DNA of 64,000 nucleotides from Gracilaria domingensis (taxonomy: Eukaryota > Rhodophyta > Florideophyceae > Gracilariales > Gracilariaceae). A model generated the notes under the pieces. The model worked only from the letters and a program-made list of their open reading frames with translations. It was not told the DNA's origin and searched no databases. A program made the translations under genes and the position numbers. The stretch is taken from assembly GCA_022539475.1 (NCBI GenBank), contig VCMS01000090.1:124001-188000 (forward strand), written 5' to 3'. Shown piece after piece: positions 3,259-58,560 of this stretch. Each line of letters begins with the position of its first letter. Within the stretch, counting starts at the first letter, position 1.

Positions 3259-5223
3259 TGTAAAGGCGGATTCGTCAGTACCACAAATGACACGAAAGAG
3301 GCGGAACGGCGTACATCAAAGTGCACTGCTGGAACTAGGGTTTGCAGGGTTGGTTGCTTATTTAGCACAACCAGACAGCGCAGAGGCTCACCATCGCTCC
3401 CTCCGTCGTCTCGAAGCGACCCGAACAGGCCGCCGCACAGTGACCGCGGTGCTTCAGCTGCGCTCATCGCCGACCGCGCAGCACTGTGTCATCTCTCTTT
3501 CCGCACGCCTCACACACAACCACCGCCTCGAAGATTGTTGCAATTGGTGCCGCCACTCGTTGCTCACTTTCCGCCCATCGCCGCACCCCTGGACACCGTA
3601 CTACAGCGCACCCGCCCCGCTGCCGTTACGCTATGATTTCGCTGCTTGGTGCTGTTCTGGAGCTTGCCCTTTCTGGCTTTGCTGCTACACTCGTATCAGA
3701 CAGAGACTGTCATTATGACCGTGTGCAAAGTGCATGGTGATGCGGCTACCTATACACCGCATATGATGCTGTGTCACCACGATCTACTAGTGAAGTGCTA
3801 CGAATGCTGCCACTGCCGCGACACGTCCGCAACAACATCAATCTCGCGCGTGGTTCCACGCGACACAATTGATCTCTCGTTAATTTCTATCATAGACGGC
3901 GCCGATGCGCGCAGGACAGCGCCGCTGAGAGACAGCGTGGCTATGACAAGATGATGTATTCAACCTAGTCTATCTCCATGGAGCCTGGCTGCTTCCACCT
4001 CAACGCATAATGTGTGACGCAACATGCTACTAGTATCAGCAATGACTCCGGCATGCATCCCGCACCCAATAAGAAGGGCGAGTACAACTTCTTGGCTTAG
4101 GGTTTCGGCAACTAGAACATTCGTCTGCCATGAATACTTGGAATGGAACTTCGTGTCTAATATTCGTGTATCACACGACCGATGATGACATGTCATATTG
4201 AATGTTGGAAGCTGCCGCAGCATGTGGCTGTCTATATAGACCCTCATCTTCTCACTCTCGCCGTCATCTCATCTCAGTGAGACCACACGATCAAGACCAG
4301 ATCATCAAGTCCAGACCACCTACATTATTCGTCCCCACACTCCCGTTCTTCGTGAAGCCCATCTTTTCCCCTTGGCATCCCCAACTTCCTTCAGCACAGT
4401 CAGTGCTTTCTCTGCCACCAACTTTCCTCCTTTGGTTCCCTTTCGTTCTCTTCGGGTGGCTTGGTCTCCCACCCCGACACCGTTGTATCGCACAGTGCTG
4501 CCCTACGATGGGCCCGTATTGCACTGCTGCGGCTATTGTTGTTTGCCCTCGCTACTCTTCAGTTGTTTGTTGATGATTGCTTTCTTGTTTGTTTATTCTG
4601 GTCATTTGCTTTGCTGATTTGCCTTTCTCTCTATCATCGTATTTGGTTTGCTTGAGTTGCTTTACTTGTTCTTGGTCTCCGTCTATCTGGAAAATCCGTA
4701 CTATCTACCAGGTTGTTCCTCCCGTTCTGAACATCACCGTCTCTTCAGTGTTTATGTAACAGTGCCCTAAGATTGGGCTTGTGTTCTGTCTTTCAGTTGG
4801 GTTGGCGCCGCGTATTTGACCGAGAGAGTGATCGTACGTGTTGGTGCTAATCTAGTTGTCTGTCAAGTTGTTGGAGCTCATTGCTTAGGCCTCGAGTTGT
4901 AGGCGCTTTGAAGCTCTACTTATTGTATTGATTGTTGGTTTTTTCATCTAGAAGTGTTCAGTGCTGTTGGTACGCTGGTACTATTTGGTTTCTTTGTTCG
5001 TGCAGATCGGTCGTTTGGTTTATCGTTCGTTGTTGCTTGTTTGCCATTGTCATTGAATCTTGCAGGCATAGGCCTGTTGGTTGTCAGTTTGTTTTCTTTT
5101 ACAAACCACTGAGCTACATTTATCGGTTTGTTTCGCCTTTCTAGGCTGGTACTCTCGACCTCCTCCTTGGGTTTGTCACCACCCGCGTCATTCTGCGCAT
5201 TCGGTACAAAAATGACGTTTACA
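3259..5223 (+). repeat. 3' LTR of gag-only element
   Basis: 1965 bp, beginning TGTAAAGG and ending GTTTACA, so the ends are a short inverted repeat TGTAAA/TTTACA. The last 932 bp equal the 5' copy at the left edge of the window. A TATATAGA box lies near 4230, about 60 bp before the sequence shared with position 1, and could be the LTR promoter. The short ORFs inside show no recognisable protein. Confidence 0.85.
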
Positions 5224-12433: not shown

Positions 12434-13461
12434 ATGTCGGAAGCATCGTCGAGCTCCGACGTCAATAGTCAGTTGGATGAGTCGCAACCGCAGCGGACCT
12501 TTGCAGAACTATCTTTTGTTTCTACCTCAATCAACCATCCGCGCTTACTTCGCACTGATTCCGCATCAATCAGGAAGTTTTTAGTCGCATATGACCAGTA
12601 TCGCAAGGAAACTACCGCAACAGCTCTGCAACTCGCTGTTGTGAACTCAACTACAATGGAGCCAGTCCACCCCGTAAACTTGGTATACTGCTGTAACCCA
12701 GAATAGATCGAATCAATCGTCGATTTGCAGCTGATGCCTGAATTATCTGACGTAAGCATGCTAACAGACCAGATGCTAGTCAAATTTTGGAGCACCGCGC
12801 CCAGATAAAGAAGACTGCAGTGTCTTGAGAGGCACTAAATTCAATGGTAGAGAAAGAACTCTCTATGAACATGCGCGATCCTTCGGCACCAATGCGAGTG
12901 GAAAACCTGTTTGCATCCTACTTCTCTCTTCTCAGGCGTAATAACGTGAAGTGGGTGATCGAATCTCGTCCAAAGATTGCCATAAAACATATCCTCTCTG
13001 CCGTGCTCCCAAAGTGGTTCCGCGAGAAACTTGAATCGAACATTGAGTTTTCGCATTCCGAACTAAAGAACGATTTCAATGCCTTTTTCAAGCACGCAAT
13101 GAAATTGTCTCAGTCGTTCGAGGATATTGACTGCGGTCCATCAGAGACTTCAAGGTCGCGTAAGGGCGACGGAAAGGAACCTGCCGCTCAGAAGCATAAA
13201 TCCAGCGGCAACGAGGGCCCGTCCAACAACCAACGGAAAACAGGCTCGCGTAAACCTCCAGCGCCATGTCCACACCCACCCTGCGCGGCCAAGGGGTTAC
13301 GACATTGGGTAGACGACTGTTATAAGGCCTTACCTGAAGAGAAGAAACAAATGAAGGCTGTATTTGCAGCTCAGAGGGCTGCAGATGGTCCGAGCAAATT
13401 CACGCGAGGCCAGAAAAGCAGATCAGGTTCTCGTGAAGGCAGTACCAGCGCAGTCTCTTAA
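12434..13461 (+). pseudogene. G1 Gag, disrupted
   Basis: ATG 12434 opens a 90-codon stretch that stops at 12706. The same protein continues past that stop and then, after a frame change near 12800-12840, as 12844-13461 (205 codons). The second part holds a capsid-like helical region followed by a basic linker (RKGDGK) and a Cys-rich segment spaced C-x4-C-x6-H-x4-C, a variant knuckle. It would bind and package element RNA. The stop and frameshift make it non-functional here. Confidence 0.6.
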
Positions 13462-15618
13462 GGTTCAATCAACCGAATTCGCCCACATTCTAGCTCTCCG
13501 AACATCTCTTCTTGTGTAATCACAGTCTCCGATGGCACGACATCTCTTGATGGAACTGGGAGGTGTGATGACGGGAGCGATGACAGTATTGTCTCACCGC
13601 GTTTGGCTGAGAAAGCTGCCTTGAGAGGCATTGGGAAAATATCAGCCATCAAGAAAACCTGCTTGTCTGTAGCACTTAAGTCAGGCGCCGAACCGCAAAC
13701 TCTCTCATTTTCACGGTCCTGGCCTGCGCCACGCACAGTGCTTCACCTCGCGTCGGGAAGCCTCGCTCTTGTGAACATCACGTATCTGGTCGCCGACGAT
13801 GAATTGGCGTGTGAAGAACTCCTCATCGGCCTCCCTGTCTTACGCTATCTGCGCGTAGACACAGCGACTCTTTTGGACAACAATCGCTTTGCGCTGAACG
13901 GAGCTGACTGCTCTGAAGTCGGTAACCCCACTGTGGAGTCAAGTCAAGGATATGTAAGCCGCCTGATGATTGCGCGGACATTCAAGTCCGACGTCGCTGA
14001 CGCAGAAGTCAAAACACGCCATCCTGCGCCAGGCCGTCCTCATGTCAGCTACCAAGCAGCCCGACATGAACAAAACCCTTTTCCTGACCCATCTCTTTTG
14101 GATCCCATTGACGAGAACCAACACGAAGAGATTGAAGCTGCTGTCAACGACATGGTGGAGAATGCACGAGAACAAGGACTAAGTGACACCCATTTCTCCA
14201 AGCTGCGCACCATTCTCGATGACAACATCGAAGTTTTTCGAGTCGCTCTATCAGCAAGACCCCCAGCAAAAATAGGACCGTTGAAGGTAGAATTGACCCC
14301 AGACGCGAAACCTGTTCACGTGCGACTACACAACTACTCTCAAGAACAACGGAAGTTCTTAGAGAAGTTTGTCACCGACCTTGTCAACACAGGAATGGCT
14401 TATGCCAACCCGACATCCCCATGGGCCAGCGCTTCGTTGATAGTCCCGAAACCTGGCCCCGCCCGATTTCGGTTCACCGTAGACCTCCGTCCTGGGAACA
14501 AGTGCACTGTCCGTCAGCAGTTTCCTATGCCCAATATTGAGCAGGAACTTTCCAAGCTTGCAGGGTCTAAATTATTCCCAACATTCGATCTTTCACATGT
14601 ATATTGGCAGTTTCCACTCCATGAAGACTCCTAAGCGCTGCAGTTTTTCATCACTACAGACGGCATCTTCTCCCCAACGCTTGTGCTACACGGAACTACC
14701 AACGCCACAACTCATCTGCAGTCCGTGCTTGCCGAGATTTTTCCACCCGAACTTCGTCAGCTGTTACTGTATTGGCTGCACGTCATCCTTCTTCACAGCA
14801 AGGACCCGGACGGACTACTGGGAGGAATAGAGAAGCAACTTCGCCTTTGTCAGCAGTATTCCATCCGACTTCACTCTAAGAATTGCATTCTATTCGCAAC
14901 ATCAATCCGGTGGTGTGGTAGAATCATCTCAGCAGCAGGCGTGAAGTACGATCCAAGGCAATCAGAAGGACTTCTTCGCATGGAGCCCCCATCTAACTGC
15001 GAAAATTTGCAACAGTTTCTCTGTGCGCTTCAATGGGTATAGATGAGCATCCCGAATTTCTCGCAGCTCACCTTTTCGCTCCATGAATTCCTGGAAAAGG
15101 TGTATTCCAAGGCCGGCAAACGCACGAAATCTGCCGTGGCACGGGTTGAACTCGCCTCTCTGGACTGGCCAGAGAAAGAGACCAACGCATTCATCGCTTG
15201 CAGAGATGCCCTCTCCCACAGAATGACACTCGCTCACAGGGACGAAAACCAGCGCTTGCGTGTTTACACAGGTGCGTCGGACAACATTTGGTCTGGTAGA
15301 TTCACTCAAGTCCCACCCGAAGACCTCACCAAGCCGCATCACGAACGAAGGCACACACCGCTGGCTTTCTGTTCAGGTTTATTCAACACGACGCAGCTTG
15401 GGTGGTCCACCATGGAGAAAGATGCATTTGCAATTCTCGCCACTCTAGAACGTATGCACTGGATAGTCGCCATAACGGCCGGATTTAATCTTTACACAGA
15501 TCACAACAACCTCGTTTTCTTATTCGACGCGCTTTCCATCATCCTTGACCTCAGCATGCCCTCCGTTCGCAAAGTTTTGCACTGGGCAGTTCGAATCAGC
15601 ATTTACAACTACATTTGT
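13462..15618 (+). pseudogene. G1 protease, reverse transcriptase and RNase H
   Basis: One reading frame with stops at 14632 and 15042 covers three enzymes. Protease: D-D-G-S-D-D-S near 13570, where the family has D-S/T-G. RT: the PTSPWASASLIVPKP region, TVDLRPGN, TFDLSHVYWQFPL with the first catalytic Asp, and then YWLHVILLHS where a Y-x-D-D would stand, so the catalytic Asp pair is replaced by His-Val. RNase H: VYTGASDN, a degraded form of the TDAS Asp motif, then WSTMEKDAFAIL with the Glu, and YTDHNN. The frame is cut after the codon for CF at 15618 by a solo LTR. Confidence 0.8.
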
Positions 15619-15622
15619 TTTC

Positions 15623-15846
15623 TGTGAGAGCGAAATGAGTAGTGAGGCGTTGGAGAACAAGACTGTGTGTCTGGTTCCCCGCAGCACTGCTTTAATAGTG
15701 TGAGAGCGAATGAGTAGTGAGGCGTTGGAGAACAAGACTATGTGTCTGGTTCTCCGCAGCTCTGCTTTAATAGTGAAAGAAGCAGATGCTTAAATGGGTG
15801 CTAATCTATATAAATGGGTGCCACCTAATGTACAGTACTACTGACA
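15623..15846 (+). mobile_element. Solo LTR (224 bp) inside G1 RNase H
   Basis: TGTGAGAG...CTGACA is flanked by perfect 5-bp duplications TTTTC (15618-15622 and 15847-15851). Removing it restores the RNase H frame as CF followed by HINGLENVWTDLL. It contains two adjacent copies of a roughly 76-bp unit (15623-15698 and 15699-15775, starting TGTGAGAGCGAA), so the LTR carries an internal tandem duplication. No internal region is present. Confidence 0.8.
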
Positions 15847-15851
15847 TTTTC

Positions 15852-17585
15852 ACATCAACGGATTGGAAAACGTTTGGACGGACCTTCTCACACGCTGGGC
15901 AGCCTCTCCAACCGTACGCCGAATTTTGAAAGTCCCAGAGCTTCCAACTACCGCCGCCGAAGATTTCTGCCGGCCCAAAGCAGAGAAAATTGTCACTCAG
16001 CAAGCCGCCCACGAACAATCTCGTCCTGATGGTTTCGAGAAGAAGAATAATCTTTGGACGAACAATTCTGGAGCAATTTGGATCCCGGAACCATGCGACT
16101 CACTTCAGCTGCGGTTATGCATCATAGCACATACAGAGCCCGCAGGACACAGAGGAAGCACGGCATCTGAAAGGACTTTCAAGAAGCATTACACCTCGAA
16201 AACGCTCGAGAACGACGTGCACACTCTCGTCAACGCCTGCATACACTGTATCTCTAATTGTTGGTCAAGACAAAGAAAGGACGGCACTGCAGTCGCACGT
16301 AGTCGCGGTGGGCAAAATGAAAAGGCACGAAGCCCTCAGGAGACTCTCCTGGGGATTGCCTTCGGACACTAGCAGACTGCTGCTGTGTCTGGGTATTTAT
16401 TATGCCTGACTCAGGCGAATGCAGACAATTATCCTCCGTCATGGGTCGCACTTGCACAATTCTTTGTGATTGCACCCACAGAGCTACCTACGCAGTTCCG
16501 ATTACGGAACTGATACAAATCAGTGTTGAATTCTCCCAGCCATGCAGTGTCTACACTGCGTAGCCATCAACACTACTACAGGAGGACAGAAAGTTCCTCG
16601 ACCTTTTGGTCTTGCCGTGCATGTAACAGGCCCAAATGATCTGTTGCAGTTCAAGTTCTTGGAGATAGGCCCAAGCAAATCCGGCGCGAAGTATGCGTTG
16701 ATGCTCCGTGAAAACTATTCGGACTATAAATGGTTTCTTGTTTGCGCATCTACCTCTGCAGAGCACACTGCACACGCTCTGGTCGATTAGTGCGCTGCAT
16801 TTTCCGTACCGAACGGGCTCATGTCGGATGAACCCACACATTTCAGAAACGAAACCATCCGCATTTTGTCCCGGTCATTGCGTGTCCCACATCACTTCAC
16901 GCTCCCATACACTCCGTCGAGCAATGGCGCAGTGAAACGACTTGGTCGAGAAGTTTTGCGAACATTCCGAGCGCTGGCGTCTGAACTGCAAATGGATTTT
17001 ATCGAATGGCCTGGTCTATTTCCCGTCCTGCAAAGTGCACTGAAAAACGCCGTTTCCCCTCAACGAATGAACGTCGCTCCCGTAACCGCATTTCTTGGAA
17101 TGGTACCCACACCCCCGATAGCCTCTTTTCTTCGTTCCGCATCACAAAAAACTATAAAGATGTCCGAAGTCGTTCGCGAACGTGCCATAAACATTCGAAA
17201 GCTCCAAGAGCATTGCGCAGCTCTCCACCCATTGGTACAAGACCGATTGCAGAAGAACAGGGAGAAGTCGCGAAGTAAGACGGAGTCTGGCGTTCTACCC
17301 AACTTTATTGAAGGCGATTTTGTGCTCGTAGCGCGCAATGAATTTCACGCCGGAGAGAAGTTAGCTTTAAGCTGGCGTGGGGCACGCCGTATTTTTAAGG
17401 ACGTATCAGATTACGTCTATCAGGTTGAAGATCTTCGCAATTGCCAGACAGAGGAAATACACAGAAGTCGACTCAGATGCTATCACGACAAATCCTTGGA
17501 CGAGAAGGCCATCACGTCTCATGTACTGACGTCGGAAACTGGCATGGAAGTAGCTCGGCTGATGAAGTTGTTGGAAAAAGATGAA
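15852..17585 (+). pseudogene. G1 RNase H tail, integrase and start of chromodomain
   Basis: Begins HINGLENVWTDLLTRW (RNase H end). The integrase zinc domain is an H-H-C-C series ending CIHCISNC near 16250. The catalytic core is degraded: stops and frame changes occur between 16372 and 16820. Recognisable parts are LLQFKFLEIGP, GLMSDEPTHF (second Asp) and SNGAVKRLG, where the catalytic Glu of SNGAVERLG is now Lys. The frame 16821-17585 stays open through the C-terminal domain to SETGMEVARLMKLLEKDE, the first part of a chromodomain. It is cut there by G2 and resumes at 29737. Confidence 0.8.
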
Positions 17586-18439
17586 TGTCGTGCATTCCCA
17601 TGAGTGAGCAAACAAGAGCCGCGTCGCGGAAAGCGCACCGACAGGGTGTTCGGAACCAGCTCTCTATAGGGGTAGATGCAGCAGTAGAACCCTCTGATAG
17701 GGCCAGCGCGATGCCGGGTGTAAGTCCGGGTGGCCCCGATCTGAGCGTGCACTCAGAGGTGAAGGGGAAGAATCGGCAAAGGTATCCGGTCGTTCTGGCG
17801 AGCCACAGCGAGTGGAGATATCCAGCCTAACGGTAGGGAGCGACATGGGATCAGCAAACGAGCCGCGCAGCAGAGCACTGACTCGTGATGAACGCGAATA
17901 AGTCCCGAGACTAGCGGGCAAAAACCTGTATAACAGGGCAGAGAAACGAGAGCCGTATGACGGAAATAATAACAAAGAAACAACAAAAGATGCCGTAACG
18001 ACGGTCTGGAACCCCTCAGTGGTAGAGGTCGGATGACTAGCCCGGAATTGTGGCGGCTTGCCCGATTAGGGACGAAGACCGTTCACAGGCGGCAAGAAAG
18101 TCATAGCCAGAAGCCTCCTTGAGGTTTACTTCCCGTACAGTGGCGGCAAGTGCCGCCACTTATATACGGCACTTGAAAATATCAATTGACATATCTAACT
18201 ATCCGGCGATGCCGGCCAATACACTACAGGTGTGCACCCGTTGCAGGCTTGCCACGGCGCACCCGCTATCGGGCCAACTTGGCACACGTGTGCAGAAATA
18301 CTACCCTTCCTATGCATACCCCTAAACAGGGGCACTACCACAGTAGCCTCTCATAACCTGAGGAGTCGAAGCCGGTAACGGATCAACAAACTATGAAAAA
18401 CACCTCGGTGCATCCCCACAGAGGGCGTTTTGCTCTACA
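17586..18439 (-). repeat. G2 LTR (3' LTR in element orientation)
   Basis: 854 bp, the same length as 28878-29731, with about 28-30 scattered differences counted by eye. In element orientation it starts TGTAGAGCAAAACG. The adjoining plus-strand ORF starts 54 bp to its right, so this LTR may supply the antisense promoter. Confidence 0.9.
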
Positions 18440-18455
18440 TTTCCCCCTTCTCAGG
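18440..18455 (-). other. Polypurine tract of G2
   Basis: On the minus strand the sequence is CTGAGAAGGGGGAAA directly before the TGTAGAGC of the 3' LTR, the standard plus-strand priming position. Confidence 0.75.
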
Positions 18456-18492: not shown

Positions 18493-20262
18493 ATGGAGGT
18501 ATATAAGGAAGTCTCCCAAGACGGGTCTGCCGAGAACTGTTCGGAGCCACCAACACCTCCGATGTCAGTAGCGAACCTCGCCATTACGAGCCCTGCCGCA
18601 ATGTCCAACATACTGAACGCCCATCCGTCTTCGACGGCACGTATGCAAGTTTCCAACCCGCCGTTCCGGTCTGTACCTCTCCCGCAGTCGGCGGCTGCCT
18701 CCCAGACGGGTTCTTCCGGACAAGATCACGTTCCAGCTCAGGCTGGTCCCGCGCCCGTATGGGATTGGTTCAACGCCGAGATGCCAGCTACGCTGGGTGG
18801 ATGGCCTACCGCAGGCGCGTTGCGCATCCGGGATCCGCACCGGCACAGTTTTCTTTTTGCCCAGGCTCCCTGGCTTGACGCCGAGGCCGTTCGGGATACC
18901 GAGCTCGTCGACTCGTACGCTGTCGACGGTAAACTCCCTGGTGGGCTTCCTGCTGACGTTACCCGTTCATGGGACTGGATCGCCTGCGTTGCGGTCACAC
19001 CGAGTTGCCGGTTTGTAGGTCGAAACGAGACGAGACAATTCGCTCGCAATGAGATGGTCCGCACTGGATATGCGCGACACTTCCGAGTTCCGAACTAACA
19101 TCCGGTGACGGCACAATACCAGTACGACGTTGCACGTTACCGAACTTTCGGCGAGGTCGGCTACGGCGACCATCTAGCCAATGCGTTGGACGAAATCGAC
19201 CGATATTCGGACACCGTTCAGCCACAGCAGGAGTTGATCCTGTGGGCGCGGCCCATTCTTCGTGCCGAGTTTCGGTTTCTTCGCCGTCCTGCACGGTCTC
19301 AGTTTCATGAGGGGCTCCGATTCGAGAGGAAATGGCGTTCCCGCTTCGGGATACTAGTGCCGTACCAGTGCACGGAGGTTGAGCGCATCGCGCGTCACTC
19401 CCATACTGGGCGATACCTGCCGCTGCCGTCATTCTGGCCTGCGGTCGAAGTCCCTCGAGGGTGTCACGTAGAGCTACCGCCCTGCCCAACTTACAGAGGC
19501 TCATATTTCATGAATGATCCGCCTCGCGACCTGTGGAGCATCCTTGCAACAGATTGGACCTTCCGCGTTGCGGCTTTCCTCTTCATCGAGGCATATGATT
19601 CGTACCGGGTTTGGTTCATCCCGGAGCTCATCCGGCAAGCGATCCGAGCGCTGGATCTCTCCGAAGTACTCGGCTCGGTCCGCAATGCGCGCGAAGCCAC
19701 TGCGTTGGTGGACGTCATCGACCGGATTGACTGGAACGAGGTGTCTGCTAGCCAGGTTTCCGACGGGGTTCGTCGGCAGTCGGACCGTTCTCCCGGACGG
19801 AACGTCAACGCCGGCGACTTCGGTTACTTTGACGCATGGATTTGGGAGATAATTGGTCTCGCTGAGGCGGCTGGTCGCCGCCGAGAGGAGCGTCATATCC
19901 CCGAAGGGCACGCGCGTGGATTCATATACGTCGACGATGACGGTGATGACCCTGCAGAGGAAAAAAGTCCCATGGACGAGGAGAGCCCAGAGGGCGTGGG
20001 GGTTGTATCGGAGCCCGGAGCTACCGGAGATGATGACGAAGTCGTGGTTGTTGACCCACCCGCTGTAGCGGCTCCGGTTCCGACCGGCCCGTGGGCTCAG
20101 GATGTAGCATCCGCCGTGGGCGACAGTTCCTCTCTCACTCCGCGAGTGGCGGTCATTCGCGACTTCCTTCGAGGCGTGGGAGTGGCCGTTCCCGATACGG
20201 TGACCGACGAGTCGGAATTGCACGCGATAGCGGCACAGCGCTTCCCCAGAGAGGAAAAGTGA
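18493..20262 (+). CDS. Antisense ORF of G2, unknown protein conserved in G3
   Basis: 590 codons in one frame with a single in-frame TAA at 19096-19098, opposite in direction to gag-pol. No known domain is recognised. Residues 1-90 are Pro/Ser/Ala-rich. A middle block contains YAVDGKLPGGLP. A C-terminal half includes YRTFGEVGYGD, LRAEFRFL and LVDVIDRIDW, followed by an acidic tail (DDDEVVVVDPP) and a last 50-residue helix-rich stretch. G3 carries the same blocks in the same order (YRTYGEVSYGN, LRAEFRYL, LLDVIDRVDW) at protein level with little nucleotide identity, so the coding capacity has been kept. In G3 the residue aligned to the TAA is Asp, which suggests a nonsense mutation rather than two genes. 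The start is ATG 18493, 54 bp inside the LTR border. Antisense ORFs at this position are known from some plant gypsy lineages, but I cannot link this protein to them. Confidence 0.75.
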
Positions 20263-20700
20263 TGTGCGTTGGATATCCATCGGATGAAAATTTGGGGCAT
20301 CTTTGGAATACCATTCGGACATCTTCTGCCCATCCACGATATCCCAATGATGTGCAGAGATAGCACGAAAGATGTCCCTAATTGATGTCCGTTAGATATT
20401 CCTTGGATGCACAAAACCTCTTCCAAAGATACTCAAATGATGCACGACAATATGTCCATTGGATGTCCCGGAATCTGAAGGGTATCACTTGGACATCGCA
20501 GAATCCATTGGACATCTCTTCGTACATCATATGCGCATCGGGGAATTATCAGTCGTTTATCTTTGATGCATCATATGTGGATCATTTACGCGCATCATAT
20601 GGACATCTAAAGGAGATCAAGTGGACATCTTTAGATCTCGTAATTTTAATGCCGGTCAACTTAGGGACATCAAATGGACATCAATTCACCTCTCTGGGTT
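20263..20700. repeat. Array of degenerate GGAYATC / GATRTCC motifs in G2
   Basis: About thirteen copies of GGACATC, GGATATCC or their complements GATGTCC and GATATCC are spread over 430 bp, in both orientations, starting right at the antisense ORF stop. A related array lies inside the antisense ORF of G3 at 43057-43489. No ORF of note is present. Confidence 0.7.
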
Positions 20701-20739
20701 CTCCGAGGCTTCCGGTAGTGGGGGCACCCCAGGTGCTGG

Positions 20740-21274
20740 GCCGTCCTGCGTGTAATTCTCCTGCTCGAGATCCCTGACGGGCTGTAGTAGTCCGTAATAG
20801 ACCCTGATGATGAGGGGCAAACTCAATAGTTAGAGGTAAACTTCTCCAGCCTTGCTGGCTTGGCTCAAATCTTTCTTCTTGTTCTCCCCCTCCTCAGGGG
20901 GCAATGCCTCGTTCGAGGCTGTTGCGAGTGGCCCACAAGAGAGGGCTAGCTTTCCGCAGAAGCGGCTGCAGCGATAAAACTTCGTAGTCTTCCTTCCAGT
21001 GTCCTGGCTTCTTCTCCTTCTTCTTAGGCTTCTTTCTTCTTCATATTCTTCTTCTACTGTAAGTGGCTTCCGCGTTTCGCGGCTTGTCTGTTCAGCCAGA
21101 GACTGTCCGCATAGAGCGGCAGGTTGCTGCTTTTCAGTAGCGTCCGCCTAGGGCGGCTTGTTCGTATCAACATCGTTGCATCCGCGTGAAGCGGCGCGTT
21201 TAGCATGATGCAATTCCATCCGCGTGAAGCGGCATATTCTGTCCGAGACAACATAGCTCACTAGTTGTGGGTGG
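20740..21274. repeat. G2 spacer with five evenly spaced 13-bp palindromes
   Basis: Between the convergent ends of the antisense ORF and pol. CCGC-N5-GCGG units start at 21070, 21107, 21144, 21182 and 21220, that is every 37-38 bp, with variable intervening sequence. A further CCGC-N4-GCGG lies at about 20954 and a CCCCC/GGGGG hairpin at about 20886. The 20990-21060 part is a TTCTTCTT-rich tract. Confidence 0.65.
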
Positions 21275-24200
21275 TCAACCCACTTGGGCCCTGTCCAGCG
21301 TAGCCGATATCGGTGCCCGTGTGCGACGGTGGTACTGTAGGACCTTAGAGCGAGGAAGATGCTCGATAGGCTCATGTGTATCCTTCGAAGAAGGACAGCC
21401 GTACCAACGGACTCGATACAATAGCTCTCCATCAGAGGCGTAGCTGTGGCTAATCAGACGGTCCATAACGCACTCCCTGTCGAGAACACGCCGCTCAGTG
21501 TGCGGTTCGGTTATTGTGCCCTCTTCTGGGGGGTCCTTGGTTGCTTTCCGGTCATGGGCGTCGCTACTAAACGGCTTCCGTCCTGACGGCAGTGCATTCT
21601 GCACGCCAGGTAGTCCTGGTGAGGATTGTGTGTTCCTGACGTTCAGGCTTCCAGATTTCTTTCTTTTCACCCCGTGTTGTCCGGCTGTGACTTTACTTTG
21701 GTCTTCTCGAACAGCGAGCTTCCGGCGTTCCGGCGGGATCTCCCGTCGTGAGGGTGAAAGGTCCGCCTTGAGGTGCGCCAGCGAGTGGTGCTGTTGTGCG
21801 CGCCGTGGCGGCGTTTCGCCGCTCACTGCTGGTGACGGGGCCTGCGCCGTTGCACGGCTTTGAGATGCCGATTCGAATTCGGAATTTCCGTTTTCGGCGG
21901 CCGCAAGCCTTACAGTAGGCACGTGCCCGGCTCGTGTGCTGTTGTTCTCCACTGGAGGTGGATCGCCGGCAAAGCCAGACACTTGGCGCAATGTGCGCGC
22001 GTGTGCAGCGTTGTGCTGCTTCCTACTTACTGTGGCGTATCGGCTCGCCATATCGGCGGTTTCCTCCGTTTTTTCAACGGCTTCATCACTCGATGCTTCA
22101 CTGAGATCTCCCGAAGTCGCGTCCGCCGTAACAGCACGGTTTCTTTTGACTAACTTTTCTTCCGGACTCCCGGCTCTCTTCAGCACAGGTGCGCTACCGC
22201 TGTCGGGCTCCGGCTGCGGCGAGCGGGTATGTTCCGCATTTGACGCGGCTGTTGCCGTGGTTGTGACACTCTTTTCCGGCGTGCCGGTCTCAAGCTGCAA
22301 AGCTGGGGCAGGCTTCTGTCCTTCCGTCTGTGACGGCAGTACAGTACCATCCGCGAGCAAAGCGGCGACTTCTGCAGCAGCTACATCCTGGTGTTCTTCC
22401 GGGTGTCTGGCTTTGTGCTCCACCGAAGTGGTGCGTTTCTCCTCAGGCTTCCGCGATAACTGCGGATTGCTCGCGTCTTTTCGATTGTTTGGCTGTGCGG
22501 CGGGCGTCTTTGCCTCCTCCTACCCCTCCTCAGTTGGAGGGTCGGGGGCGGTGGTAAGTATCCCCGGCGGGGCCAGTATCCGCGTGCGTACGTGAGCGGC
22601 AGCAGAGACCGACTGGTGAGGCTCCGGCTCAGCTGGCAAATCAGCAAGTCCGCGGTTGGGATGCGGCAATACTGACGGTGAAGTGCGCGCTTCCGCTTCA
22701 GCGGCTGGTTCTGCAGTATGCGTAGCGGTGTCCGGCGTTTCCGGTTGCGTTTCCTGAGAAGCAGGCGTTTGTGCAGGCGTTACGCGATCTCGCGAAAAAC
22801 GCTCGTGCTCTCCCTTGATGTCATGGACAACCGTAGTGTCGGTAACTGAAATGACCCGGTAGGGACCATCCGCGATAGGAGAAAGCTTTTGGCGCTTCTC
22901 CTTCTCGGGATTGTAGTATTCCTTCCGTATGAAGGCATAGCTACCTTCCCTAATCTAAGGGGCATGTCTGCGCACTCTTTCCTCGAAATTCCGCTTGTAG
23001 GCGGCTTCTGCCTTAGCGATATTTTGCCTAACCGTAGGAATAATCTTCGTGAGCCATCCCTTCCACGCGTCCCTATGGAGGCGGGGCGAGGGGAACTTTT
23101 CCAGTACTGGCTGTGGCTCGATGACCACCGACGGTGGAACGCGTGATAGCACAAGCTCGAACGGCGAGATCTGAGTAGTACGATAGACCTGCGTATTGTA
23201 GGCATACGTCACCGCATCGTTGTACTGATCCCATTCCGACGGATGCTCGGCAACGAATGTCCGTAATGCATTGAGTATTGTGCGGTTAAAGCGTTCCACC
23301 TGCCCATTACTCTGGGGATGATATGTTGTCGTGAACCAGTTTTGGATCCGCCAGATGCGGCAGACGTCTTGAAAGAACTTAGCCGCAAACTGCGGTCCAT
23401 TATCCGATAACAAATCAATCGGCGGTCAGTAGACAAAAACCCAGTGTGTGACGAACGCTTGGGCGACCGCACTGGTGATAACCTCCTTCAAAGGCACAGT
23501 CCGTACCAGCTTAGAAAAGCGGTCGGTGATCACCAGTAGAAACCGGTTTCCATGACGGGTGCGAATAAACTCACCGAGCAAGTCAATAGCCACGAACTCC
23601 AGGGGGGCCCTAGCAGGGAAGAGTACCAACTTCTTGGAATACTTCCGCAGTTTGACGCGGTTCTTCGCGCAGTCAGAACATCCACGAACAGTGGCATACG
23701 CATCAAAAGCCATCGCTGGCCAGTAGAAGTCCTTCCTCAAGGTGTAGTACAACCTCCTGCCACCATGGTGGGCTGAGAGCTTCGCATAGTGCGACAGATG
23801 CAGTACTCGTGACTGAAGTGAGTAAAAAACCACAATCTGTGGTTTGCGCCCGACAGTTCGGATGAGGAATCCTTGGTCGTTCTCGACGAAAGGCAGTCGT
23901 GCTCCACCGTTCAGACGGCTACGAATCTCCGTACAGAAAGCGTCCGTGTGCTGCTCCCTGATGAGTTCTTCCGGCTTAATCGGTACGAAAGAACTCGGTT
24001 CTGGGCGCGTGTCTGACACGGCTAAAACAGCATCGTAGATGTCGTATCCTTCCGAATCTTCATCGGCATCGCTCGAGCCGCCTTCCGCGAGAAAGCGCGG
24101 TATTTCCAGATCATCGACTGGCGCAGCTTCAGCCGCTGTTTCCAAGCGGGACAGTGCATCAGCCTGAGTGTTCAAGAGTCCTTTCTTGTAGCAGATTTCA

Positions 24201-26712
24201 AAGTCGAATTCCGACAAGCGAAGCCTCCACCGCATCAAGCCGCCAGATGGCTCTGCTATAGAGAGTAGCCAGCGTAGGGCCGAATGATCGGTATGAACAA
24301 TGAAGCGAGTTCCCATAAGATAGGGCCGCAGCGTCTGTAATGCCCAGACAACTGCCAAGCACTCCTTCTCGGATACCGAGTAATTCCTTTCGTGAACGTT
24401 GAGACTTCTTGACCAATACCCAATTGGCAATTGCTCGCCATCCTTGGTGGTCTGGAGTAATGCACAGCCAACTTGGTAGTCGCTCGCATCCATATCTATT
24501 GCATACGGCAAGCCAGCCCTAGGTAGGGATAAAACGGGTGGCGATGTCACCGCGTCCACGAGCGACGAGAAAGGCGCAGCTTTGCGGTCGTCGAATTCTT
24601 CCAGGTTGACTGGCGGTCCTTTGCGGAGGAGCTCGTTCAGAGGTGCAGCGATATCCGCGAAGTTCGGAATAAAGCGGCGATAGACATTAAACAAGCCGAG
24701 AAAAGATCTGAGTTCCGTCTGCGTCCGCGGATGCTTAGCCTCTTTGAGGGATCTCACGCGAACCTCGTCTATCGATAGCCGTCCAGGACGGATAACGTGG
24801 CCGAGATATCTGACGGTTTCGGTAAAGAACTCACACTTCTTGAGCTTGAGCGTAATGCCTGCATCTCGTAGGACTCGCCTCACATCCCGTACGTGGGTCA
24901 AGTGCTCGTCCAGGTTACCGGAGTAGACAATGATGTCGTCCAGGTAGACCAGGCAAGTCTTCCACTTGAAGCGGGCAAGCAAAATGTCCACAGCATGTTG
25001 AAAAGTGGCTGGCGCGTTGGTTAACCCAAAGGGCATCCGATTGAATCGGTAAAATCCTTCATGGCAAACAAAGGCTGTCTTGTCACGATCTTCGGCCCTC
25101 ACAGGAACTTGCCAATAGCCCCAATTCGCGTCTAGGGTCGTAAAAACTTTCACGTCGCCCAATGAATCGATGCATTCATCCATTCGTGGGATACGATACA
25201 CATCCTTGACTGTAGCCGCGTTAAGCTTGCGGTAATCGATGCAAAATCGCCAAGACCCATCCGCTTTGGGCGCGAGCACCACCGGTGATGCCCAGGGTGA
25301 CTGAGACGGCTCGATAACTCTTGCGCGGAGCATTTACTCAACTTGAGCTTTCTCCTCCTGCCGAGCTGTCGGTTCTGCCCTGTAAGGGTGCTGTGAAATG
25401 GGACGAGTATTCGGTAGCAAATGGATCGGATGTTCGGTAATTCCAATCTTACCCAATGTGCCATCCCACATGGGCCTGAACTCTTCGAGCATGTGCCGCA
25501 ATTTATCGCGGTGAGTCTCTGGGACGTGTTCAAGATCCAGAGACTCCAGTTCCTGTATTGACTTATCCTTCGTGTCAGCAGCACTCAGGTCCTTATCATT
25601 ATTGTCCGACGAGGTCGGAATTGCTTCCTTCGACAGGCTGCGGTTATTCGCATCCGACGAAGTCGGCGTAGCATCTTCCGACGAACTGTTCAGACCAGGA
25701 TTCGGTTCGGCGTTGTTCCGTTCCGCCTCCCCCTCCTCAGCTTCGAGGGTACCGAGAACTTCGGCAATAGAGACCTGGGTAGGCACTATAGCCGCGGGGT
25801 GCGGGAGCAATGATTCAATAACTTGGCTCCTAACCAACCGTTAAGGGAAACGGCTGAAGTTCGCAACCAGCACCTGAAAAGGCTTCTCGGGTTCGACGAA
25901 AACGATCCCATTAGCCAGGGCGAGCTGATGCTTCTCCTGCAACGCAGGCAACGGTTGCACCGTTTATAAGCCATATTGTGGAGACGTCACAGTAATCCAG
26001 ACCTGCGATTCAGGCGGGATGCAAATAGACCGAGCTACTCGGAGCTTTGTAGACTTCCGTTCATCGGTTGTAGGCTCCTGCGCAGCAGGCAAGGGGACTT
26101 GCTTCTTCAAAGCCGGTCGAAGGGGACGCCGAACGATCGGTACAGTAGTCCCATCTTCCATTTCGATGGTTCGCTTCCACCGTCGAATTGAATCGACGAA
26201 GCGGTCACAGAAGTCGCAGCCGAGGATAACCGGCGCAGCGAGTTGCTTTCAAACCAAGAAATCGAGCTTCGCCACGTAGCGGCCAAACCTGACGAGCAGG
26301 TCTATTACTTCCACAGTCGAGAGTGGGCGATTGTTCGCATCCGCTATGTCAATATGCGGCGCCACACGGATGCAAGATCGCAAGTGCGGCGGAATCATCG
26401 ATTCAACCAAGAAGTTTGGCCCAGCTCCTGTATCGAGCACGGACAACTGCCGAACCATGTACTGGTCGGAAACACCTAGGTCGGCGTAAACTTTGTAGTT
26501 ACGTTTCGCCATGACCAGGACTCTATCCGGGAACCGGCTGTTCTTAGACCGTATCCACAGGCGACGCAAGACACCAAGGTGCTCAGAGTCCACGTCTGTA
26601 GTGGCCATTTTCCTCGAAAGGATTGTGACCGGGGAGCGAGGCTTCTCAGCCTCAGGCGCTCGAAACCCCGTCGCTTGGGGCGCCTCTCCATTGCTGGAGG
26701 CTCCCTTGCTCA
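21275..26712 (-). pseudogene. G2 Pol polyprotein (PR-RT-RH-IN-chromodomain)
   Basis: A single minus-strand frame of about 1.8 kcodons. Order: protease VLDTGAGPNF (about 26420); RT with SPWASPVVLAPK, TTLDANWGYWQVP and CLVYLDDIIVYS (catalytic Asp residues present); RNase H IDMDASDYQ, SVSEKE, VHTDHSAL; integrase HHCC ending CSDCAKN, VAIDLLGEF, LLSDNGPQF, GQVERFNR; and a C-terminal chromodomain near 21300-21470 (LLYRVRWYGCP, IEHLPRSK). All catalytic residues checked are intact. Only nonsense changes interrupt the frame (including 25334, 23426, 22955 and about 22517) and I saw no frameshift, so decay is recent. It is reached from gag by a -1 shift at 26713-26719. The chromodomain probably directs integration to particular chromatin. 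Confidence 0.88.
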
Positions 26713-26719
26713 GTTTTTC
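26710..26719 (-). promoter_or_regulatory. Putative -1 ribosomal frameshift site, G2 gag-pol
   Basis: Minus strand GAG-AAA-AAC-TGA: heptamer G-AAA-AAC immediately before the gag stop. Shifting back one base at AAC opens the pol frame without a stop up to the protease. The same heptamer and geometry occur in G3 at 50638-50644, with a UAA stop. Confidence 0.6.
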
Positions 26720-28713
26720 TCAGCTTCACAGCCAATCTGCGGAGGTTGCGATCCCGCAGAGGCGGCTACAGTTCCACGATTCGATGGCACCGTTTCCTGG
26801 TTTCCAGGCTGAGTCTCCGCCTTCGCACGAAGGTACGATCTGTCGGGAACACGTTCCCGCTCGGCAGGCGTCAACGACTCATACTGAGGCACTATCTTGG
26901 CCATATCCCGTATGGGCATTAAGAAATTCGGAGCGATGTGCCCTGGCCTGTAACAGGTATGACAAATAAGGTGACGAAGAAGATCCGCGTTGGGCGGCCG
27001 GCGCTCCTTTCGGGGAGGATACGGGTCCCTCCATCCAGGGCGTTGGCTTCGATATCCGCCAGAGTGCGGCACGGGCAATGCCGGGACTTGACGTCCGGCG
27101 TACAGAGCGGGGTATACGTCTACTGTAGACTGCTCCGTCGTCGACGGCAATTCCGAACTCGGCATTGAACCATCGTCCTGTAACAGGTGTAGGTTATCAT
27201 AACCCCCCTGAACAGAACCTCGCGAGTGAGGCAGTGAAGAGTCCCGGCCTTCTACATGAAGGAGTCGGCGCGTGCGCGTCTTGACACCAGCGCGTGCTCG
27301 AGCTGCATCTTCCTCAGCTTGGGCAACTTGAACGAGTTCCAGATAAGTAATCCGGCGTTTGTTCTCCCGAAAACGGGCAACCAGTGTCCTGATCGAACGT
27401 TCTAGGCCATCGAAGAACATCGTGCACCGCTCAGCTGCGGAGAACACGTTGCCACATCTGTGGAAAGCCTTATTGAGGCGGGTCGAATAAACGGTTTCCG
27501 ACTCTTCGGCTCCTCACTTCGTGTCTCGCAGCGCGAGTATAGCACCTTGTATCGCATTGCCTGTCGCGTAAGAGCGCAGGAAATATTGTACCGCTTCCGG
27601 CCGGCACGTAACTCCTCCCTTGGAGGGTCGGGTCGACCCACGAACCGAATTGAATTGATCTTCGGCTACACCCGTCAAAAAGTACGGCAGCGCAATGTAG
27701 GCCTGTGCCTCACTCATCTGAAGTACATCGGCTTCCGCCACGAAGCGGCCAAGAAAATCCAAGAAAAGAATTGGATCTTCCCCAGAGAACTTGTGGGGCT
27801 TCAGCGTGAGCTCTATTTGTCGGAGATGGTTCCGCACCTTGCCAGTCCCACGTGGGATTCTCTGTGGCCTCGTCTCATCAAGCTGATAATATCGGTACGA
27901 TAGCAGCTTCCGATACAGTAAGTTTGTCGGCTTCACTTCCTTCAATCCCAGGTGTCTCCGTCCTTTCGTACGGCCTCGTGCAACACCAGAGGTGGCTTCA
28001 GTAGCCCACGAACGGGATGCAAGATAGCGAGAGCGCTCTTCCGCGCTGTCCGAAGAGTTGGTAGACGATCCCTTTTGAGGGCCTTCCTCATCAGAAGAGG
28101 ATGAAGAAGACGAGTCAGACTCAACCTTGATCTTCTTCTTTGCCGTACGATCCCGGGAACGGCGCGAATGCTGAGAACCCTCAGAAACCGGGGCTCCTGG
28201 CGCAACATCATCAGATACGATGATTTGCTCGCCCGTCTCCAGACGGGTAGCCATGCGGTCCAAGCGTGCAGAAGCCTGCTCGTGCAGGGCAGCCGACACC
28301 TGTCGGTGTTCCATAATCTGGTTGACATCAGACCGTAAAACACGGACGTCGCTCGAAACATCCCGGACACCGGCTTCATCGAGCCGTTGCCGGAGTTTCG
28401 TAATATCCCGGATGAGGCCCACTTGGGAGTTCTGCAGGATGCGAACCTGAGCCTCTAATTCGCGGAGGGTATACTCGTCGGACCGCGACGACATAACGTC
28501 AACCGCTGCGGCGGCATCAGCCCCAGGTGCGGTTGGCCTACGAGTGGGTGGGTTCCCGTTATCAGAACGGAGGCCTCGGGAAGCCGGTTTCGGGTCGCCA
28601 TTGCCTGGGACATCCAGTGCGTCCTTCGGCAACGGAGGCAAGCTTGTCGGCAAGCTGGAAGAACCGGGCACAGAAGCGGCACGTGGCGCGCTACTCCTGG
28701 GACGGGACGACAT
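26710..28713 (-). pseudogene. G2 Gag
   Basis: Starts at ATG 28713 (MSSRPRSSAPR), 165 bp inside the LTR, and ends at TGA 26710 with CEAEKN. One in-frame stop at 27514 splits it into 399 and about 245 residues; G3 reads through at this point with a similar sequence. The N-terminus is low-complexity Ser/Pro. A coiled-coil-like stretch lies at about residues 80-150, then a basic/acidic Ser-rich linker (KKKIKVESD), a capsid-like region (GRRHLGLKEVKP to LRDTK), and a C-terminal knuckle CHTCYRPGHIAPNF in which the last Cys of CCHC is Phe. The G3 knuckle is a perfect CCHC. Confidence 0.8.
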
Positions 28714-28877: not shown

Positions 28878-29731
28878 TGTGATGCAATCCCATGAGTGGG
28901 CAAACAAGAGCCGCGTCGCGGAAAGCGCACCGACAGGGTGTTTGGAACCAGCTCTCTATAGGGGTAGATGCAGCAGTAGAACCCTCTGATAGGGCCAGCG
29001 CGATGCCGGGTGTAAGTCCGGGTGGCCCCGATCTGAGCGTGCACTCAGAGATGAAGGGGAAGAATCGGCGTAGGTATCCGGTTGTTCCGGCGAGCCACAG
29101 CGAGTGGAGATATCCAGCCTAACGGTAGAGAGCGACATGGGATCAGCAAACGAGCCGCACAGCGGAGCACTGACTCGTGATAAAGGCGAATAAGTCCCGA
29201 GACTAGCGGGCAAAAACTTGTATAACAGGGCAGAGAAACGCGAGCCGTATGACGGAAATAATAACAAAGAAACAACAAAAGATGCCGTAACGACGGTCTG
29301 GAACCCCTCAGTGGTAGAGGTCGGATGACTAGCCCGGAATTGTGGCGGCTTGCCCGATTAGGGACGAAGACCGTTCACAGGCGGCAAGAAAGTCATAGCC
29401 AGAAGCCTCCTTGAGGTTTACTTCCCGTACAGTGGCGGCAAGTGACGCCACTTATATACGGCACTTGAAAATATCAATTGACATATCTAACTATCCGGCG
29501 ATGCCGGCCAATACACTACAGGTGTGCACCCGTGGCAGGCTTGCCACGGCGCACCCGCTATCGGGCCAACTTGGCACACGTGTGCAGAAATAATACCCTT
29601 CCTAGGCATACCCCAAAAAAGGGGCACTACTACAGTAGCCTCTCATAACCTGAGGAGTCGAAGCCGGTAACGGATCAACAAACTATGAAAAACACCTCGG
29701 TGCATCTCCATAGAGGGCTTTTTGTTCTACA
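28878..29731 (-). repeat. G2 LTR (5' LTR in element orientation)
   Basis: 854 bp, partner of 17586-18439. It ends CTACA at 29731, followed directly by the target duplication ATGAA and the resumed G1 reading frame. The 3' LTR has the same short inverted repeat GGCAGGCTTGCC-like core near its middle, with one change. Confidence 0.9.
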
Positions 29732-40259: not shown

Positions 40260-41842
40260 TTTAGAGCGAAACCCTGCGATAAACGCTATGAGGAATCTCC
40301 ACTAGGATGTCCGAGTCCTACTCCCTATGAGAGATAGACTCAGCGATAGAACCCTCTGTCCGTATTCGAGTCCGGTGTTAGACCGGAGACGGTGACTGGC
40401 TATACCTACAGAGGTGGGATGCAAAGAACGGTGCAGATCCGGAGATGGAGTGTGATCCGAACCTGAACAAAGGGAAGAAAAAGGGGACCGTGTAAACGGG
40501 AAAAGCTCACGGTAGAAACCACCGAAGCGGAGCTACGGACCGTGCCAACCGGCGGGAACAGATCCGACAGCGCGACAGCGGAGCGACGCACTCGAAGGCG
40601 CCAAAAGTAAACCCAATACTGGGGCGAAAGCGATACCTGAACCAGGTGAACAAGTGTAAACAACGATGTAGAGCAATCGCGATTTCGCGTTTGTGACGTG
40701 TTCTGTCTCAAAACACCTCGGCTTTCCGAGTTGTCTCTACAGTAAGGTTATGATTTTAGGTGGCATTCTGACGCCATATGGCATGGTGGCACCCGATGGG
40801 GTTGATGGATTGGTAACTGGTTGTGGCAGTGGATCGCGTGTACGCGTGTATGGATTGGCTCTGTTACAGAGAAAATTGAATTGGTTATCAGAATTAGTGG
40901 CCGCCAAGGGGGGTCTGCACAAGTGCAACACGTGTGTGGTTCTGCCATATTTGGCACTACTTAGTTTAATTATTTAGTTTAATTTGTGGAAACCTATTTA
41001 GGTGATGGCGACCTCGCCGTCACCACCACAAAGTAAACTCAACCTTGTCCGCGGCTCTGACTTGAGCGCCTGCGTGTAGTGCACAACTCCGCGAGGAGGG
41101 TTACCGCGTACGGTTTCGCTTATTTCATCCCCAAGGGATCACTCAGGTACCCTGATCTAACACTACGTTTGACTTCGGACTGTGTTCGCACATTTACTTG
41201 CAGATGTCTGCTACTCTGGTGTTCAGATATTGTATCGACTCTGTATAGAGGTCTGCCGCGTGGGCTCAATACACATCGTCACCCTTGGCCCGCGTCTGTT
41301 GCCGCTTGTCGCACGACCCCGCCCTCGGGTTTGTCCCTTTTTCTTTTTTTTCCTTTCCCCTTTTTCCCTCTTTTTCGAGGCACCCCGTCGACCTCGGTTC
41401 TTCCCCTTCCGCCTCCGATCAGAGATCTCCGACTCTCGGACGTTTGCTTACAGATCCCCTGTTGGCGATTCCCGCCGTCACCTCCTTGGTATTTCCAAAA
41501 TACAGGCGGATTTACACCCGCGCTATCCGTATACGGAGGGCTCTTCTGCTGAGTCTACCTCCCAAGGGAGCAAGGATTCGAGCACCTTGAGTGTCATTTC
41601 TCCCAAGTGAGATTTGCACTACAAACGAGACTCAGCAGAGTGACAACAACAAGAATCAACAACAAGATCAAAACAAGGAAGAACAAGAGACAACCGACAC
41701 AGCGGTAAAGACAATCAAAGATCCAAAGATGGCGAGACAAGTGCTCTTTTAGTGACCCTGAGGGGTAGTAGTGCCGATACCAGTCTTGGTTACTCTCCAG
41801 ATGGAGTCGTAGACCTACGTAGGCAGCAAGCTACTATAGCCC
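40260..41842 (-). repeat. G3 LTR, left copy, interrupted
   Basis: 40260-40666 and 41624-41842 together align with the right LTR 52954-53578. The interruption is the solo LTR at 40667-41623. The alignment begins TTTAGAGC and ends ATAGCCC. Confidence 0.85.
40667..41623 (+). mobile_element. Solo LTR (957 bp) nested in the G3 left LTR
   Basis: TGTAGAGC...CACTACA, flanked by perfect 5-bp duplications AACGA (40662-40666 and 41624-41628). The first ten bases, TGTAGAGCAA, equal the G2 LTR start in element sense, so it may be a distant relative. It contains no pol sequence. ORFs inside (for example 41079-41552) are Pro/Leu/Arg-rich and look incidental. Confidence 0.85.
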
Positions 41843-50640: not shown

Positions 50641-50644
50641 TTTC
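50635..50644 (-). promoter_or_regulatory. Putative -1 ribosomal frameshift site, G3 gag-pol
   Basis: Minus strand CCG-AAA-AAC-TAA: G-AAA-AAC directly before the gag stop. The -1 frame then reads LNLGVSPVRRAFSKPK into protease. Position and heptamer match G2. Confidence 0.6.
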
Positions 50645-52953: not shown

Positions 52954-53578
52954 TTTAGAGCAAAACCGTGCGATAAACGCTATGGGGAATCTCCACTAGG
53001 ATGTCCGATTCCTAGCTTCTATGAGAGATAGACTCAGCGATTGAACCCTCTGTCCGTACTCGAGTCGAGTGAAGAGCCGGGTGTAATACCGGAGACGGTG
53101 ACTGGCTATACCTACAGAGGTGGGATGCAAAAAACGGTGCAGATCCATAGATGGAGTGTGATCCGAACCTGAACAAAGAAAAGAAAAAGGGGACCGTGTA
53201 AACGGGGGAAAGCTCACGGTAGAAACCACCGGAGCGGAGCTATGGACCGTCCCAACCGGCGGGAACAGGTCCGACAGCCGAGCGCCGCTCTCAAAGGCGC
53301 CAAAAGTAAACCCAATACTGGGACTGAAGCCATACTTGAACCAGATGAACAAGTGTGAACAACGAGACTCAGCAGAGCGTCAACAACAAGAATCAACAAC
53401 AAGAACAAAACAAGGAAGAACAAGAGACAACCGACACAGCGGTAAAGACAATCAAAGATCCAAAGATGAGAGACAAGTGCTCTATTAGTGACCCAGAGGG
53501 GAAGTAGTGCCGATACCAGTCTTGGTTACTCTCCAGATGGAGTCGTAGACCTACGTAGGCAGCAAGCTACTAGAGCCC
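52954..53578 (-). repeat. G3 LTR, right copy (5' LTR)
   Basis: 625 bp, uninterrupted partner of the left LTR. In + sense it begins TTTAGAGC and ends TAGAGCCC. Confidence 0.85.
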
Positions 53579-57805: not shown

Positions 57806-58399
57806 CTAAAATGTCGTAGCTGATTTAGAACTAAATTTACTGGAGCTACCTTTCTTTACAGAATTTTCCTCCTTCTCGCGCTGCATGGAGCATTCTAGTT
57901 GGGTGTAGAATTCCTGATACGACAGGTTCTCTGTGTCCAAACGTGCGATGGGAAGAGTGGCCCAACTGTGTCCAATAACAGCTTTACGTAAGTAACCAAT
58001 TAGACTTGCGTCGTTTTGACAGTGAGTAGAGCCTTGAGGAGCGAGCTTAGTAATATCGCTTTCGAGATTTTCCAATGCCTTAGTGTCATCCTTACTGTCA
58101 GTGACATACTTGTCAAAACGAATGCTGTTTAGCTGGTTCTCAATACGTTTCTGGCGAGCAGTGGAATTATATTGTGATTCCATCATTTCATTAGCAAGGC
58201 TAATGTTGTCTGCATGACCAACTATTATCTGAAAGAAGTAGCATTTAGCCTTATCGCGCAGAACGTGATGCATAAATTGCATTTGCTTATCGGGAGGTAC
58301 GTTGTAATCTGCTAAGGCTAATTTGTACTCCTTGAAGAACTCGTTCCAACTTTCACCTAAAGCACCCGAGAATTTTTTCGAGTCATCCTTAAATCTCAT
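57806..58399 (-). CDS. Divergent copia Gag
   Basis: 197 codons from ATG 58399 (MRFKDDSKKF) to TAG 57806. Helical, capsid-like (WNEFFKEYKLAL, FYTQLECSMQRE). Directly after the TAG the same frame stays open through QTKAPPARYGRHRN to the zinc knuckle and Pol, so the stop is the only barrier between Gag and Pol. The start may lie upstream, because the frame is open for about 45 further codons without an ATG. Confidence 0.6.
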   Translation of the reverse strand: MRFKDDSKKFSGALGESWNEFFKEYKLALADYNVPPDKQMQFMHHVLRDKAKCYFFQIIVGHADNISLANEMMESQYNSTARQKRIENQLNSIRFDKYVTDSKDDTKALENLESDITKLAPQGSTHCQNDASLIGYLRKAVIGHSWATLPIARLDTENLSYQEFYTQLECSMQREKEENSVKKGSSSKFSSKSATTF

Positions 58400-58560
58400 C
58401 GAAATATTGTGCGCAATTTTCGAAGGATCGGGGGGACGTCCACTAGAACTACTTGGGGTGTTGTTCGTCTCAATACGAATTTCTCCGGAATTGTTGTTCG
58501 GACGATCAACAAGGGAGAAACGTAGAGGAGGAGAACGTCTGTGTTCTGCAAAGTGGATTA

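Follow-up and report, generated by a model that had tools for sequence, protein, structure and literature searches.

The 64,000-nucleotide stretch of Gracilaria domingensis DNA analyzed here (the window; contig VCMS01000090.1, positions 124,001 to 188,000) contains two retrotransposons, G2 and G3, whose gag-pol genes lie on the minus strand. The plus-strand coding blocks of G2 and G3 are remnants of one protein gene that runs antisense to gag-pol, hereafter the antisense gene. G2 is a minus-strand chromovirus, and its plus-strand frame (18493–20262) lies between the chromodomain and the 3′ long terminal repeat (LTR). The two LTRs, both minus-strand (3′ LTR, 17591–18439; 5′ LTR, 28883–29731), pair as an 849-bp direct repeat with 96.9% identity in a self-BLAST search of the window. 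The inner edge of the 3′ LTR, which reads TG...TACA on the plus strand, faces the antisense gene, and the polypurine tract (18440–18452, minus strand; a pyrimidine run on the plus strand) adjoins this edge between the LTR and the gene. The other minus-strand parts of G2 are the chromodomain-bearing end of pol (21275–22423; Pfam Chromo, E = 1.5e-06), the reverse transcriptase (RT), RNase H, and integrase frames (22955–25333; Pfam RVT_1, RT_RNaseH, and Integrase_H2C2; RT/RNase H subframe, 25333–23426; integrase subframe, 23413–22955), a protease-region frame (26249–26608; 67% identity to the matching part of L040 and L041, two other loci of the genome), and gag-region frames (26710–28713). The protease and gag labels are given by position. 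These frames and the LTR pair bear out the arrangement proposed for G2 in a reading made from the sequence alone (the sequence-only reading), i.e., a plus-strand open reading frame (ORF) between pol and the 3′ LTR.

The antisense frame of G2 is split by an in-frame TAA codon at 19096–19098 into pieces of 201 codons (18493–19098) and 385 codons as listed (19105–20262). The former is homologous to the intact copies of family A, the family to which G2 belongs, and the latter is matched elsewhere in the genome, though its final few codons belong to an insert. This insert (20245–20698, 454 bp) resembles a miniature inverted-repeat transposable element (MITE): its ends are inverted, and TTC flanks it on each side. 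It severs the natural C-terminus of the gene, and the displaced C-terminal remnant (20699–20755, plus strand) matches the end of the gene at L004, an intact copy without the insert. The MITE-like element is rich in GGACATC/GGATATCC-type motifs, and a genome search with 429 of its bases gave 52 matches, 41 of which cover at least 371 bases, the window copy included.

Stop codons, breaks in the frame, and an insert disrupt the gene in G3, and its nearest family is B. Its plus-strand remains are an N-terminal piece (42597–43052; 44–45% identity to the family B protein), a middle piece in another frame (43486–43674; 48%), and a C-terminal piece with internal stops (43731–44795; 41%). The first two pieces are separated by an insert of ~433 bp (43053–43485), recognized as a gap between homologous pieces. 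This insert is rich in GGATATC/GGACATC-type motifs, similar to those of the MITE-like element in G2. Thus, the claim that both elements carry an ORF of about 590 codons does not hold, since the G2 frame falls into 201 and 385 codons and that of G3 into three pieces. All four pairs of sequence blocks quoted as shared by the two proteins are, on the other hand, found in the translations. The low DNA identity that had been noticed is also seen: the antisense regions give no DNA match in the window self-BLAST (E ≤ 1e-10), while the pol regions are 66.7% identical over 2765 bp. The minus-strand parts of G3 are the pol and gag-region frames (46532–52500; RVT_1 and RT_RNaseH_2 in 48382–50022; matches to L039–L041), the 5′ LTR (52954–53578), and the 3′ LTR (40260–41842), which matches the 5′ LTR in two pieces. 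An insertion of ~960 bp interrupts the 3′ LTR at 40667–41623.

Further copies were sought in the own genome (a 77.9-Mb assembly of 680 contigs), where only the best candidates were scored, so that the counts are lower bounds. Three queries gave at least 107, 78, and 88 scored matches to the antisense gene in overlapping lists. The matched part has no internal stop in 77 of 107 rows for the first query (the other 30 have one) and in 66 of 78 for the second. Full-length open frames are present in four element families, with 599 codons in family A (L004), 617 in B (L012), 644 in C (L041), and 681 in D (L039). Family E is represented by one locus, L056, with an open stretch of 550 codons, 526 of them from the first ATG; its N-terminus may be missing. 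One protein family is common to at least four families of elements here.

The gene keeps its place relative to pol. In 56 of 58 loci, all but L028 and L043, the opposite strand carries a chromodomain 280–1016 bp past the antisense stop. These loci (L001–L039 and L041–L059, with L001 being G2 itself) were picked as antisense-gene matches, so elements without the gene are uncounted. A pattern count in family A, allowing up to three mismatches, finds 169 sites for the gene and 204 for the chromodomain, and none with decoys, though the two patterns may reach old copies unequally well. The sequence-only reading had named absence of the ORF from most family members as contrary evidence; such absence is not seen in family A, the only family in which it was looked at. 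At L039 (family D), a single opposite-strand frame of 1533 codons runs from RT to the chromodomain (RVT_1, RT_RNaseH, Integrase_H2C2, rve, and Chromo). The 1469-codon pol frame at L040 (family B) stops short of the chromodomain and has no Chromo hit, and the chromodomain match of this element lies beyond the frame, in L012. The pol of L041 (family C) is spread over several frames. RT, RNase H, and integrase in gypsy order with a C-terminal chromodomain (the L039 frame and the G2 chromodomain) place these elements among the chromoviruses. A gene antisense to gag-pol, between pol and the 3′ LTR, and kept in most copies (the 56 of 58 loci and the family A count) places them in the aORF-3R class of elements with antisense ORFs (aORFs).

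The antisense protein is under purifying selection. Ratios of nonsynonymous to synonymous change were calculated by the NG86 method, with the window pieces included in the family A pool. The pooled pN/pS values are 0.29 (A), 0.47 (B), 0.40 (C), and 0.31 (D). Among the 72 listed pairs, dN/dS is 0.17–0.45 in 62, 0.04 in one, and 0.45–0.67 in nine, chiefly young or decayed copies; three family C pairs at dS of ~0.8 give 0.26–0.27. In blocks of 80 codons, the values are 0.11–0.23 across residues 157–476 in family A (0.19–0.66 elsewhere) and 0.17–0.26 across residues 154–473 in family C (0.37–1.23 elsewhere), and the core is accordingly the most constrained part in both. Family D is less tidy: most core blocks are at 0.06–0.27, but one block with few changes is at 1.07. 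Neutral simulations at comparable divergence, with one copy each, leave the frame open in only 7 of 500 runs (A), 0 of 500 (C), and 1 of 500 (D), and the other five frames carry 5–27 stops in the four copies checked. The spacer control is mixed. Spacer divergence exceeds dN in family A and in most D pairs, whereas in family C, in comparisons with L053, it is 0.22–0.29, which is close to dN and much lower than dS, so that the spacer is an unclean neutral yardstick in C. The selection on the protein that the sequence-only reading had deduced is thus upheld by dN/dS well below 1, by a frame rarely open in neutral simulations, and by a tree like that of pol; the near-1 ratio that would have spoken against it is not observed.

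The four-family trees of pol (631 columns) and of the antisense protein (515 columns) both have the topology ((A,B),(C,D)). The approximately unbiased test rejects both other topologies with either set (p = 0.015 and 0.029 for pol; 0.032 and 0.0002 for the antisense protein). By these sequence trees, the antisense gene has been carried along since before the A–D families split. Identity among A–D is 64–74% for pol and 38–44% for the antisense protein, which indicates that the antisense gene evolves faster than pol.

The N-terminal part of the protein is rich in proline and bears a short PLPQ-type motif. A conserved core (~330 residues) comes next, then a linker that is either acidic or rich in Pro/Ala and, at the C-terminus, a brief conserved segment. 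In agreement with the sequence-only reading, which recognized no domain, searches of Pfam, NCBIfam, and PDB give no relative worth the name, and the AlphaFold models are not confident. Three protein-database searches, with 8000 candidates scored in each, give eight records, of which P0002–P0008 are convincing. The nearest named homologues are from Gracilariopsis chorda (66% identity) and Agarophyton chilense (30–37%), and their records call them hypothetical or unnamed proteins. The remaining record, P0009 (444 amino acids; E = 0.46), has a profile probability of 92 over 127 columns, covering one core block, and judged by this match it is possibly a distant relative elsewhere. Nothing was confirmed in IMG/VR or in prokaryote genomes.

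The start site is close to the LTR. In G2, the ATG is 53 nt from the inner LTR edge, which is fixed by the LTR pair. The corresponding distances from the edge (TACA and the pyrimidine run) are 79 nt at L012 (B), 43 and 55 nt at L041 and L053 (C), and 79 nt at L039 (D); these three families' junctions were counted by eye, and the edge there rests on the motif rather than on an LTR pair. The order of LTR edge, pyrimidine run (the complement of the polypurine tract), and ATG is common to A–D. Because the ATG is only 43–79 nt from the edge, any unspliced leader of more than ~80 nt must start within the 3′ LTR. This spacing suggests that the antisense mRNA may be made from a promoter in U3 of the 3′ LTR.

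Lysine is almost absent from the protein in families A, C, D, and E, though not in B. The full-length copies have 2–4 lysines in family A, 8–11 in B, 2 in C, and 0 in D, and the E copy has 0, against 41–53 arginines, while codon-position base composition predicts 9–15 lysines per whole protein. Eight gag/pol pieces contain 3.7–6.4% lysine. Of 5000 shuffles of the core alone, 148 reach as few lysines in family A, 95 and 93 in C, 8 in D, and 3 in E, against 2601 in B. Twelve of the 13 antisense proteins contain a lysine-free run of 150 residues or longer, while the longest run in the gag/pol pieces is 141. By the definition of a lysine desert given in the consulted part of PMC10665810 (no lysine across 150 or more residues or across half of the protein), these 12 qualify, and P0008 (120 of 360) does not. 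No lysine at all is found in the 526–681-residue antisense proteins of L039, L055, L056, L058, and L059. Since family B lacks the signal, lysine depletion falls short of proof, and we regard it as a functional lead.

Four further features of the window lie outside these genes. Beside G2, the plus strand at 12844–17603 holds a remnant of another Ty3/gypsy-like element, with RVT_1 at E = 0.034 only. An exact 932-bp direct repeat (1–932 and 4292–5223) perhaps represents the LTRs of another very young element. A minus-strand frame of 557 codons (54583–56256) has a copia-type RVT_2 match at E = 7e-05, below the curated cut-off. The region 58001–60000 has a GC skew of −0.386, unlike the rest of the window.

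What the gene does can be approached by weighing the readings it allows. The antisense strand might act as RNA, either as double-stranded RNA (dsRNA) or as a regulatory transcript, with the long frame being a by-product of base composition or sense-strand constraint. As the region would belong to the sense transcript, dsRNA would arise from convergent transcription; the gene's guanine-plus-cytosine content of 58–62% favors long frames, and the −1 frame of family A is also open for 267 codons. However, a by-product would not be expected to retain its protein identity among A–D where the genes of G2 and G3 share no DNA match, to show a dN/dS of 0.2–0.3 in the antisense frame with stops in the other five, or to give an amino-acid tree equal to that of pol. 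A pure RNA function is rejected on the protein identity, the tree, and the stops, and we consider the RNA explanation as a whole highly improbable. Chance insertion of another mobile element near the 3′ LTR is hardly credible: nested inserts are common in the window and are found in both antisense genes, but the gene occupies the same place and orientation in A–D, 43–79 nt from the inner LTR edge. We reject a nested element on this constancy and on the equality of the gene's tree with that of pol. The gene may instead be cargo, i.e., a captured host gene or an envelope-like or movement protein. In favor are the homologues of G. chorda and A. chilense, annotated there as hypothetical proteins of the host, and the one weak match, P0009, whereas the lack of a transmembrane peak and of a domain hit, the antisense orientation, and the co-descent with pol across four families make it very unlikely. 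The highest 19-residue Kyte-Doolittle mean, a simple scale, is 1.52 among ten proteins; this value and the orientation do not agree with a retroviral-type envelope, and the envelope-like role suggested by the sequence-only reading is rejected. The captured host gene suggested there finds no support, as no homologue was recognized outside elements, although the database homologues are known as protein records only. On the silencing suppressor, also suggested there, the data weigh neither way.

Counter-defense is a further reading. A lysine-poor effector could, in the manner of lentiviral accessory proteins, block host silencing or restriction, possibly via a ubiquitin ligase. The intact A, C, D, and E copies have 0–4 lysines against 43–53 arginines, the lysine-free runs exceed those of gag/pol, and the protein evolves faster than pol; moreover, the consulted parts of PMC10665810 and PMC10169902 connect lysine deserts with proteins of the ubiquitin system and with some viral proteins. 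The family B core, contrarily, has no lysine deficit, the Pro/Ala-rich tails are lysine-free for trivial reasons, and the domain searches found no ubiquitin-system domain. The resemblance to lysine-desert proteins lies in the long lysine-free runs, a desert being a compositional class and not a homology family. We judge counter-defense unlikely. Its boldest form, in which an old red-algal family of nearly lysine-free antisense accessory proteins engages or evades the ubiquitin system to beat host control, as an independent retrotransposon counterpart of lentiviral accessory proteins, is more doubtful still. We favor, as the probable reading, a third, antisense-encoded gene of a gracilariacean chromovirus lineage, whose product acts as an LTR-driven accessory regulator; here we infer both transcription and function. 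The product would be a soluble accessory protein. Its mRNA would be driven by the U3 antisense promoter, and the protein would most likely regulate the element inside the cell, whether by acting on transcription, by countering silencing, or by teaming up with host proteins. In most families, the scarcity of lysine would favor a long-lived protein where the ubiquitin system is at work. The antisense gene probably helps the element govern its own activity or escape the host.

The layout is of a known kind, while the protein family and the host lineage appear undescribed. In plants, aORFs of the Retand/Tat elements (Retand, RIRE2, and maize Grande gene23) are described as lying antisense between pol and the 3′ LTR in most family copies, often with Transposase_28 (PF04195), a function that is unknown, and a proposed regulatory role, according to the consulted parts of PMC11963269 and PMC7264820. 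The parallel with plant gypsy elements drawn by the sequence-only reading therefore stands for position and orientation but not for lineage: the plant genes, in the portions of PMC11963269 and PMC6317226 consulted, belong to non-chromoviruses of flowering plants and have other domains, whereas ours belong to red-algal chromoviruses in which PF04195 was not found. Kinship with PF04195 is rejected, since ten antisense proteins give no Pfam hit to it at E ≤ 10 and the own genome gives 0 matches at E ≤ 10, a search with a weak control (14 control genomes yielded one sub-threshold match). PF10536, the plant mobile domain of Ogre elements, gives no Pfam hit in the ten proteins at E ≤ 10, and the genome search for it is silent, as are its controls. 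By these sequence comparisons, the antisense protein is a family separate from the plant ones, with no detectable relation. The reported promoter of Grande gene23 is upstream of the gene, whereas the ATG here is 43–79 nt from the LTR edge; the regulatory role proposed for our protein would be comparable to that proposed for gene23. A targeted search of the open-access literature found no description of a red-algal antisense chromovirus gene, consistent with the earlier impression that a version in this type of host is undescribed.

Outside plants, Boty also bears an antisense gene (PMC7264820). It is a Ty3/gypsy element of Botrytis cinerea, and the gene is named brtn in the consulted part of PMC8365987. 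The antisense third gene is common to both systems; Boty has a fungal host. The likeness to HBZ of HTLV-1 is in mode of working only, HTLV-1 being a mammalian retrovirus: in the consulted parts of PMC11963269 and PMC7264820, HBZ is a regulatory protein encoded on the antisense strand, and its antisense promoter lies in the 3′ LTR. The role proposed for our protein would be comparable to the one known for HBZ. Why LTR retrotransposons carry antisense third genes is a long-standing puzzle, since such genes recur and keep their position but have no known function. The red-algal elements, in which many copies are intact, selection is clearly visible, and the gene descends together with pol, offer a compact test system for it, and annotators are warned that the G. 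chorda and A. chilense homologues stand in the databases as hypothetical or unnamed. The same layout with a protein family of no detectable relation to the plant ones suggests that an antisense accessory gene near the 3′ LTR was invented more than once.
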